Shown one piece after another: positions 42,724 to 44,848 of a stretch of DNA of 64,000 bases; within the stretch, counting starts at the first letter, position 1; every line of letters begins with the position of its first letter. Location: positions 26,197-90,196 of the forward strand of contig CAIUUO010000183.1 in NCBI GenBank assembly GCA_903902325.1. The letters run 5' to 3'. This DNA comes from an uncultured Bacteroidia bacterium. Lineage in GTDB: Bacteria; Bacteroidota; Bacteroidia; Bacteroidales; Prolixibacteraceae. The notes under the pieces were generated by a model, which did not search any database, was not told the origin of the DNA, and saw only the letters and a program-made list of their open reading frames with translations. Made by a program: the position numbers and the translations under genes.

Positions 42724-42966
42724 TCATCCCACATTCGTGAAAGCAGCAAGCAATTCTTGTGCCTGAGTATAATCCGAACCGAAAATTTTGACGTTTACGG
42801 GTGCAATCCCTCCAGGGCTGACGATCCACGGTTCAATTACCGACATCAGCTTATTTTCAATAAATACCATTATACCATTGGCTTCAAGCAAACCCTTGAC
42901 CATGGTGGCTTGGTACAAATCTCCTGAGAATACTTCAACAATTTCGTTTTTGTTGTTCATCGGCAT
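42724..42966 (-). CDS. DUF2007 small protein (putative signal-transducing protein)
   Basis: An 80-residue protein of the DUF2007 family: IVEVFSGDLYQATMVKGLLEANGI is the ferredoxin-like opening, followed by a short loop region and VKIFGSDYTQAQELLAAF. The family is named as putative signal transducing but its function is unknown. It lies downstream of the CPBP gene on the same strand after a 96-bp gap. Its link to the peptide locus is uncertain; such genes also stand alone in Bacteroidota. Confidence 0.8.
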   Translation of the reverse strand: MPMNNKNEIVEVFSGDLYQATMVKGLLEANGIMVFIENKLMSVIEPWIVSPGGIAPVNVKIFGSDYTQAQELLAAFTNVG

Positions 42967-43062: not shown

Positions 43063-43548
43063 TCATTGATTTCCAATCAGGGCAAAAAATATTGCAATCA
43101 TATTTCTTAGTCCATGAATAAGGACAACTGCGATATATGCATCACTCCAATTGTTTTTTCGCTTATAAAGAATAAAAGCGGTAGATAGAACTATTCCAAA
43201 AAAAATTCCGAAGAAAATGTATGTAATGTTATAGTTGTGTAACAATCCAAAAAGGATTGAAGATATTGCTATTTGAAAGGTAATCTTTTTTGTAATGAAT
43301 CGGTCAACAAGAAAGATTACACCTGCCTGAAATATAATTGTCTCAATAACAGGAGCAATAATTACTGCTTCAATGATTTTAAAAAATTGAATTTCCCCTG
43401 ATGAAGACCTTGGAGGAAGAAATAAGGCAATAGGAATATAAAATACAAATATTAGATAGGATAATAATAGTGAAACACCTACGAATGGAGCAAATCTAAG
43501 GTTCCTCCACCAAATTAATAAGCGTGCAAATTTCTTTGAGATTTTCAT
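43063..43548 (-). CDS. CPBP (Abi/CAAX protease-like) family membrane protein
   Basis: A 161-residue integral membrane protein with about five hydrophobic segments. It carries CPBP motifs: APVIETIIFQ in place of the usual EExxxR, FGLLHN (second motif, with His) and VVLIHGLRN (third motif, His and Asn). Motif 1 has Thr for the second Glu and Gln for Arg, so it is either a subfamily variant or a non-catalytic member. CPBP proteins are often encoded beside bacteriocins, where they act in immunity or peptide processing. This one follows a double-glycine leader peptide gene by 60 bp, with a stable hairpin between. The ATG at 43548 is preferred; the longer frame to 43575 would begin inside that hairpin. 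Confidence 0.78.
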   Translation of the reverse strand: MKISKKFARLLIWWRNLRFAPFVGVSLLLSYLIFVFYIPIALFLPPRSSSGEIQFFKIIEAVIIAPVIETIIFQAGVIFLVDRFITKKITFQIAISSILFGLLHNYNITYIFFGIFFGIVLSTAFILYKRKNNWSDAYIAVVLIHGLRNMIAIFFALIGNQ

Positions 43549-43563
43549 GAATGAAATAGTGAG

Positions 43564-43603
43564 AATGCTAGCCAAATTTGATTTTTTTTATCTGGCTAGC
43601 ATT
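43564..43603 (-). promoter_or_regulatory. Hairpin between the peptide gene and the CPBP gene
   Basis: AATGCTAGCCA (43564-43574) and TGGCTAGCATT (43593-43603) form a perfect 11-bp stem with an 18-nt loop. It starts 5 nt after the peptide stop codon on the minus strand. There is no T-run after the stem, so it may act as a partial terminator, an RNA-stabilising end or a processing site that favours the peptide message over the membrane protein. Confidence 0.6.
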
Positions 43604-43608
43604 TATCT

Positions 43609-43785
43609 TTAATAACCATGTCCAGTCCAGTTCGCTGGCATTTGTGATCTGTAATAGCTCGTATAGGTTGCGATGTGTCCAATCAGCCCGTCTCCAGTCA
43701 TGACTTCATATACTACTTCAGCTATTTTCAAAAAAATATTTCCGCCTTCAACTTTTTCTAAGTCACTTTTTTCCAACTCTTTCAT
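43609..43785 (-). CDS. Double-glycine leader peptide (bacteriocin- or pheromone-like precursor)
   Basis: A 58-residue open frame with a classic leader: MKELEKSDLEKVEGG at residues 1-15, ending in Gly-Gly, the site cut by C39-type peptidases or peptidase-containing ABC exporters. The predicted core is 43 residues without Cys. It has a hydrophobic, helix-prone first half (NIFLKIAEVVYEV), a Gly-rich turn (MTGDGLIG), a Tyr-rich stretch (TYTSYY) and the end PANWTGHGY. The leader matches, without gaps, the motif at the C-terminus of the upstream helix-turn-helix protein. A CPBP protein follows. Cysteine-free core and lack of modification enzymes nearby argue against lanthipeptides. Bacteroidetocins of gut Bacteroidales are a known precedent for GG-leader toxins in this phylum, but I see no specific core similarity. 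No exporter is in the window. Confidence 0.72.
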   Translation of the reverse strand: MKELEKSDLEKVEGGNIFLKIAEVVYEVMTGDGLIGHIATYTSYYRSQMPANWTGHGY

Positions 43786-43856
43786 AACTCAAATTTATTA
43801 AATTTTAATTTAAAAATCTCCCCACTTTCTTTCCCGTGCAGCAGGTTTTGGCACGC

Positions 43857-43866
43857 GTAACGTTAC
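43857..43866. promoter_or_regulatory. Palindrome GTAACGTTAC upstream of the peptide gene
   Basis: A perfect 10-bp palindrome lies 72 bp upstream of the peptide start codon and 27 bp after the end of the helix-turn-helix gene. It is a candidate operator for that regulator. A 10-bp palindrome can occur by chance, so confidence is low. Confidence 0.3.
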
Positions 43867-43892
43867 AAAACCAAAGGAAAGGAAAGCCACTC

Positions 43893-44228
43893 TCAAATTT
43901 TGACAGTGCGGAAATTTGTTTTGTTAAAATCCAATAAAAATGCAAGATTATAAAAACCACCGTTTACAATTTGAATCTCTTTATTTGACAACTCCTTCAG
44001 GAAAAACCCGCAAATGAATTTTACCTCGCTCGAGTAAATGTAACTTTGGTAACAGAAACTGAACTCAATGGGGGCTCCCATCTCCCGGAGGGTATCAATC
44101 AACCGGTAAAGTGATGCCTCAGAAATTGCAAGTCTTCTGGCAAGGTCATGTGGGGATCCCGTTGCCTTTAAACGGATCAATTGGTCGACCCTCTCAATTA
44201 ATTGGATATGCTGAAGTAGTTTGTTCAT
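43893..44228 (-). CDS. Helix-turn-helix protein with a C-terminal double-glycine leader-like motif
   Basis: A 111-residue protein. Residues 1-60 look like a winged or DeoR/HTH_11-type helix-turn-helix: IERVDQLIRLKATGSPHDLA then RRLAISEASLYRLIDTLREM, followed by GAPIEFSFCYQSYIYS. After a short FICGFF link, residues 78-91 read KELSNKEIQIVNGG, a double-glycine leader motif, and then a 20-residue tail (FYNLAFLLDF...) to the stop. The motif aligns with the leader of the downstream peptide (KELEKSDLEKVEGG). The frame is continuous, with no sign of frameshift. The start is the ATG at 44228; a TTG at 44237 is also in frame. It may be a regulator that is also a peptide precursor, or the leader-like end may be a binding surface for the same peptidase. 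Function is inference. Confidence 0.72.
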   Translation of the reverse strand: MNKLLQHIQLIERVDQLIRLKATGSPHDLARRLAISEASLYRLIDTLREMGAPIEFSFCYQSYIYSSEVKFICGFFLKELSNKEIQIVNGGFYNLAFLLDFNKTNFRTVKI

Positions 44229-44380
44229 AGATTTCAAATACCCATACCCATAAAGTTACCGCAAAAAATTGGCAAAAGAGAATTATTTGCGTTCAAATTT
44301 GGGAAAAGAAGGATAAACGTTGATTGCATTGGACGAATATGTCGACGCTCTTCGGCAAAACCCCGGAGTCGATCCATTTT

Positions 44381-44848
44381 CCACATTCTTCATCATCCTG
44401 CCTCAATCAAAATCGGCGATTCAGAAAATGCCGCACCCGCACGCTACTATCGGCAAATCCCCGGGGTCGAATTCATTAGCACATTAGCACATCAGCACAT
44501 TAGCACATTCATGTACCCATTCACATTTTCACATTTCCACATTCTTCATCATCCTGCCTCAATCAAAATCGGCGATTCAGAAATCGCCGCACCCGCACGC
44601 TACTATGGGCAAATCCCCGGGGTCGAATTCATTAGCACATTAGCACATCAGCACATTAGCACATTCATCTACCCATTCACATTTCCACATTTCCACATTC
44701 TTCATCATCCTGCCTCAATCAAAATCGGCGATTCAGAAATCGCCGCACCCGCACGCTACTATCGGCAAATCCCCGGGGTCGAATTCATTAGCACATTAGC
44801 ACATCAGCACATTAGCACATTCATGTACCCATTCACATTTCCACATTC
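44381..44848 (+). repeat. Tandem repeat of a 156-bp composite unit (three copies)
   Basis: Units start at 44381, 44537 and 44693; the last is about 148 bp. Each holds, in order, CCACATTCTTCATCATCCTG, a hairpin CGGCGATT-CAGA-AATCGCCG (stem damaged in unit 1), CGCACCCGCACGCTACTAT, TCCCCGGGGTCGAATTC, four octamers AGCACATT/AGCACATC, and TTCACATTT words. The first unit is preceded at 44364-44375 by a similar CCCCGGAGTCGA edge. Open frames through it are just translated repeat. 44229-44380 and 44849-44892 show no gene. Confidence 0.9.

Follow-up and report, generated by a model that had tools for sequence, protein, structure and literature searches.

In a 64,000-nucleotide stretch from an uncultured bacterium of the Prolixibacteraceae (contig CAIUUO010000183.1; hereafter, the window), positions 43063-44228 carry three minus-strand genes that probably constitute a cassette of a modular, bacteriocin-like system built on peptides with a double-glycine (GG) leader: an exporter-cleaved peptide, a matched CPBP membrane protein and a local regulator with a docking tail. 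In the order of transcription, a gene for a helix-turn-helix (HTH) protein is followed after a 107-bp gap by the GG-leader gene and, 60 bp further on, by the CPBP gene; all three frames are open. In the mechanism proposed here, a C39 ABC exporter (HlyD plus ABC protein, encoded elsewhere in the genome) would cleave the GG leader and export the 43-residue core, which would most likely target related bacteria at their membrane or envelope. The CPBP protein would most likely be the immunity protein matched to the window peptide, and the winged-helix HTH protein would be the local regulator of the system. A GG-leader-like tail on this regulator would most likely dock on the C39 domain of the exporter, thereby coupling exporter state to peptide expression.

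The precursor peptide and its relative in a second genus

The precursor gene (43609-43785, minus strand; 58 codons) encodes MKELEKSDLEKVEGG followed by NIFLKIAEVVYEVMTGDGLIGHIATYTSYYRSQMPANWTGHGY, a 58-amino acid product consisting of a 15-amino acid leader (43741-43785) and a 43-amino acid core without cysteine (43612-43740). The original prediction, made from the letters of the window, had described just such a gene 60 bp before a CPBP gene, and that description was confirmed in the sequence. Leaders were judged by hydrophobic residues at -12, -7 and -4, an acidic residue at -8 and GG at -2/-1; LEKSDLEKVEGG follows these double-glycine rules for precursors of C39 exporters, with L-12, D-8, L-7 and V-4 ahead of the GG. 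When formulated as a strict open reading frame pattern, the GG leader gave one match in the real 64-kb window, compared with a mean of 0.02 in 100 Markov-resampled sequences of equal length.

A direct search with the peptide, covering the contigs of its genome and 393 genomes of the order, returned no match beyond its own genome, and the homologue of the peptide surfaced only via the neighbourhoods of HTH genes. This homologue is found in G484, a genome from another genus of the same family, where HTH gene, noncoding element, peptide gene and CPBP gene stand in the same order. The G484 peptide ends GYYRDQAGIPASWSGHGY, and its C-terminus has YYR.Q..PA.W.GHGY in common with that of the window peptide, a similarity whose score of 64 was reached in 0 of 20,000 shuffles. 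Stops or frameshifts in related genomes had been named in advance as grounds for giving up the original prediction; the frame is kept in this second genus, with identically ordered neighbours and a common C-terminus.

The CPBP protein as a probable matched partner

The CPBP gene (43063-43548, minus strand) starts 60 bp past the peptide stop codon and encodes a membrane protein of 161 amino acids that matches the Rce1-like Pfam family PF02517 (33.9 bits, E 3.9e-8, cut-off 22.4). The CPBP motifs originally claimed for it hold up in part: the family is supported by the Pfam cut-off, and FGLLH (F...H) and HGLRN (H...N) are present, whereas EExxxR is not intact and reads ETIIFQ. The same departure characterizes the CPBP proteins near GG peptides, in which the first E of EExxxR is kept and the second E and the R are replaced. 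All full-length members have P..ET...Q, F...H and H...N, and one further member is truncated ahead of the last motif. The first E, both H and the N are presumably the catalytic set, as expected from Rce1, and because they are kept, activity of the CPBP protein is possible. The predicted structure is a helical model with a predicted local distance difference test (pLDDT) score of 86, and a Foldseek search with this model gave no significant match, Rce1 folds included. Abi/CAAX proteins are known as bacteriocin immunity proteins, according to work cited in PMC4467070.

The closest full-length homologue of the window CPBP protein is that of G484, at 40% identity. Across ten loci that pair a CPBP protein with a GG peptide, CPBP similarity follows peptide-core similarity (Pearson 0.92, Spearman 0.60), with close pairs in agreement and 0 of 5000 permutations as high. 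Since such co-variation is expected of cognate pairs, the CPBP protein appears to be the matched partner of the peptide, and the originally proposed pairing of a precursor with a partner protein thereby gains support. By these sequence comparisons, the CPBP protein is a probable cognate immunity or processing protein. The HTH proteins of the window and G484 belong to different subfamilies (30% identity); therefore, peptide and CPBP protein appear to travel together between exporter operons. Moreover, orphan cassettes on contigs C247 and C140 of the window's genome and in genome G473 start with the apparent final codons of an HTH_B gene, and these 3ʹ remnants read as a trace of cassette exchange among operons.

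The putative regulator, its operons and the exporters

The HTH protein (43893-44228, minus strand; 111 amino acids counted from the ATG, with the DNA-binding domain at residues 1-65) exceeds the Pfam HTH_11 cut-off (26.3 bits versus 25). AlphaFold2 predicts a winged helix at residues 1-65 with a pLDDT of about 90. A sequence search for a solved relative found none, and the nearest solved folds by Foldseek were CggR, NiaR and BirA, all with weak E-values.

Homologues of this protein were found in 53 of 140 genomes of the family. In Prolixibacteraceae and Aquimarina, such homologues belong to a recurrent operon: HlyD, C39 ABC exporter, HTH protein, one to three variable GG peptides and a membrane protein that is often a CPBP protein. 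Membrane proteins in further operons of the system are likewise Rce1-like. A scan of GTDB genomes yielded 79 named loci, including Maribellus, Sunxiuqinia and many Aquimarina. In a genome of the same genus as the window (G420), a close HTH homologue (79% identity) comes immediately after HlyD and the C39 ABC exporter, at a contig end. Conserved synteny is the basis on which the HTH protein is taken to control the peptide gene.

The assembly containing the window (4.79 Mb, 304 contigs) encodes two C39 ABC exporters with open frames, each scoring 118 bits, above the cut-off. They are located on contigs C248 and C285, the former preceded by HlyD and followed by an HTH paralogue. The original prediction was to fall if the genome had no C39 exporter; two were found, neither of them adjoining the peptide. 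The genome also holds two sister cassettes, each with the apparent 3ʹ end of a lost HTH gene at its start. One, on C140 (L007, 918-1573), comprises two GG peptides and a small membrane protein; the other, on C247 (L170, 1499-2154), comprises two GG peptides and a 47-amino acid membrane protein. Both C140 peptides exceed the cut-off of the class IIb bacteriocin model TIGR03949 (26.0 and 24.6 versus 21.5).

A GG-leader-like tail on the putative regulator

The most unusual feature of the locus was overlooked in the original prediction: the window HTH protein carries a near-C-terminal tail, LSNKEIQIVNGG, that resembles a GG leader. The leader-like part, KELSNKEIQIVNGG (43956-43997, minus strand; residues 78-91), has L-12, E-8, I-7, V-4, G-2 and G-1. 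The resemblance was scored with a position weight matrix derived from 73 peptide leaders and stripped of its GG columns; as background served the 1486 GG sites found in the remaining proteins of these loci. The window tail, at 16.6, scores above all 1486 background sites, and HTH tails collectively also score higher than background (p = 6e-31, relatedness ignored). Furthermore, the GG is invariant among 18 exporter-type HTH homologues, and an NCBIfam bacteriocin model aligns to residues 78-97 of the HTH protein, with a score under its cut-off. In the predicted structure, residues 82-88 are helical and the stretch after the GG (90, 91) is of low confidence and likely disordered. In LahT substrates, the leader helix from -11 to -4 docks in a groove of the C39 domain (PMC6363468); the tail helix at 82-88 matches this docking helix, with the V, I and L of the tail at corresponding positions.

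The tail is also associated with genomic context. Among 113 distinct homologues (relatedness ignored), it is present in 33 of the 34 HTH proteins for which a C39 exporter lies no more than 1.5 kb away and a GG peptide no more than 600 bp away, and absent from 52 of the 56 that have neither nearby. Judged from its codons, in which silent sites are near saturation and amino-acid changes few, the tail is under purifying selection. It is very unlikely that the GG tail is coincidental, or a by-product of selection on promoter DNA. The 3ʹ end of the HTH gene does overlap a conserved promoter-like stretch, TGAGAGTG-N8-TTCCTTTG (43872-43895, minus strand), which covers the HTH stop codon and is a putative promoter; its spacing is identical in the related loci seen, and it is retained in an orphan cassette on C247. 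However, the GG of the tail lies 20 codons before this DNA, amino acids are kept while silent sites saturate, and presence of the tail tracks exporter and peptide context.

Alternatively, the HTH protein may itself be an exporter substrate, with the HTH domain as the leader and the short post-GG peptide, FYNLAFLLDFNKTNFRTVKI, cut off and exported. This is unlikely. Its GG motif is leader-like, the post-GG residues are modelled with low confidence and are likely disordered, and some of them recur (SLLFYESGR in HTH_B), but post-GG length and sequence are highly variable. Moreover, the DNA encoding SLLFYESGR overlaps the conserved promoter-like stretch and persists in orphan cassettes without an HTH gene; therefore, it may be the DNA that is conserved there.

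A docking tail on a local regulator is the form in which these features fit the cassette described above. Extended to the group, the proposal is that a family of winged-helix regulators of Bacteroidota bears a C-terminal mimic of the GG leader, that the peptide exporter uses its C39 peptidase to bind or cut the regulator, and that exporter occupancy sets bacteriocin expression. This larger proposal is tentative, with a likelihood slightly short of even. A literature search for a leader-tailed regulator found no description of one.

Both tail states occur within one Aquimarina genome. In tandem HTH pairs behind an Aquimarina exporter (L100, L101, L105 and L106), the downstream copy has the GG tail and the upstream copy has GEEVLEVSS or alike, with SS replacing GG. 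At L122-L149, also in Aquimarina, tail-less HTH paralogues of the same family lie directly upstream of very large proteins (about 1100-1600 amino acids) or other genes.

Weighing the cassette interpretation

Several observations weigh against a bacteriocin-like cassette in the window. The window peptide scores below the curated bacteriocin models (13 bits versus a cut-off of 27.1 for PF10439; no match to TIGR03949). The original view that the core belongs to no recognized family is shared here, although the C140 paralogues in the same genome do pass such a model. Most related cassettes carry two GG peptides and the window cassette only one, so the two-peptide arrangement of class IIb is absent, and only one homologue of the core was found in the 140 family genomes. 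A processing role of the CPBP protein stays conceivable because the residues expected for catalysis are kept, HTH_B tails match the leader profile less well than HTH_A tails, and many of the genomes sampled are metagenome-assembled, with homologue counts that ignore relatedness. Finally, there is no exporter or exporter remnant beside the window HTH gene, for which reason the cassette most likely uses an exporter in trans.

The single peptide also bears on the possibility that the peptide is a signal (pheromone), that the CPBP protein contributes to its processing or sensing, and that the HTH protein is the response regulator. Retention of E, H, H and N by the CPBP protein and the presence of a regulator within the same cassette would suit this explanation, and C39 exporters export pheromones too (PMC10986499). 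It is nevertheless improbable, as the cores are long (about 20-46 amino acids; 43 in the window) and very different between loci, most cassettes have two peptides, the class IIb bacteriocin model recognizes paralogues, the co-variation between peptide and partner is of the kind expected of immunity, and no histidine kinase was seen nearby.

Separation from the exporter operon would likewise be expected if the cassette were a functionless, decaying remnant, and in keeping with this, tandem repeats occupy the upstream region and orphan cassettes elsewhere retain only the 3ʹ end of the HTH gene. Decay is highly improbable given three open frames, a tail under purifying selection, intact leader and partner motifs, and two C39 exporters elsewhere in the genome. 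A working cassette served by an exporter in trans is the favored interpretation.

Noncoding elements and surroundings

Between the HTH and peptide genes lies a conserved noncoding element, GTAACGTTACGCGTGCCAAAACCTGCTGCACG...GTGGG (43821-43866, minus strand), also overlooked in the original prediction, that is a candidate H-type pseudoknot. With three mismatches allowed, its pattern has nine matches and no reversed match in the 140 family genomes, and all nine are upstream of GG peptides; the window type of element was found in two genera only. In the candidate pseudoknot, the loop of a hairpin would base-pair with a strand on its 3ʹ side. Helix 2 (43841-43845/43821-43825) pairs in 9/9, with one compensatory change, but a column-shuffle control lends it little support (33/500), and four of the nine sequences carry a C.A mismatch in helix 1. 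Minimum free energy folding of the element is no better than that of shuffles. A known Rfam riboswitch was rejected, as the element has no Rfam match (DUF805b, RF02914, included), and a simple operator of the local HTH protein was rejected because element type tracks host lineage or cassette and not HTH subfamily.

The counterpart on C140 is a DUF805b RNA (RF02914; 43.3 bits versus a gathering score of 35.6). This RNA occurs in the 5ʹ untranslated region (UTR) of sister GG-peptide operons (L004/L007, 861-897; L092, 1132-1169) and, upstream of various genes, in 102 of the 140 family genomes. Specificity for GG peptides was rejected, as DUF805b precedes many other small membrane or secreted proteins too. 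Additionally, a strong hairpin (43564-43603, minus strand; -18.8 kcal/mol, z -5.6) lies between the peptide and CPBP genes, and the G484 locus likewise has a hairpin there.

Upstream of the HTH gene, a 156-bp tandem repeat in three copies (97% matches) spans 44378-44847, followed by short 7-bp repeats. The CPBP gene is followed directly, on its own strand, by a gene for a DUF2007-type protein (42724-42966; Pfam 40 bits); a similar protein also adjoins a GG-peptide locus in L043 (1840-2097).

Comparison with known systems

Few peptide bacteriocins have been characterized in environmental Bacteroidota, yet GG-peptide systems that lack cysteine and include a cognate membrane partner seem to be common there and to vary greatly. 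Such systems may yield narrow-spectrum antibacterials, along with toxin-immunity pairs that lend themselves to testing. The nearest likeness is to class IIb bacteriocins of the lactobin A/cerein 7B type (TIGR03949), with immunity of the Abi/CAAX kind found in plantaricin loci: both have a GG leader, a C39 exporter, a CPBP/Abi partner and cores that are small, Gly/Ala-rich and poor in cysteine, and the C140 paralogues pass the model. Unlike these, the window peptide fails the model and stands alone, its host is gram-negative and uses HlyD, and its regulator is of a different type, with no kinase/response regulator seen. Bacteroidetocins (PMC6671954) are also peptide toxins of Bacteroidota with a GG leader; cleavage takes place at the double glycine, and a peptidase/exporter gene accompanies them. 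However, their cores have at least two cysteines, and their loci include a thiol oxidoreductase gene but no immunity protein, whereas the window core is cysteine-free, falling outside that definition, and is accompanied by a CPBP partner and an HTH gene.

The noncoding element of the window resembles DUF805b RNA (RF02914) in its position in the 5ʹ UTR of GG-peptide operons and in a similar hairpin with a 3ʹ G-rich strand. It differs in sequence, lacks an RF02914 match and was found in two genera only, whereas DUF805b precedes many other genes; the association with GG peptides gives context for RNA elements of this kind.

For the tail of the regulator, the closest parallels are the leaders of LahT-type C39 peptidases/exporters (PMC6363468), which share L-12, E-8, L-7, V-4, GG and a helix before the GG; in the window system, the motif sits near the C-terminus of a DNA-binding protein too. 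HetC of Nostoc (PMC10986499) likewise ties a C39 exporter to regulatory output, but HetC has no known substrate and a GG leader was not found in its vicinity, whereas here the candidate regulator itself bears the motif. If the tail does bind the C39 domain, it would form a simple link from secretion capacity to toxin production, and the logic of such an export-coupled switch would be comparable to that of FlgM and the flagellar exporter.
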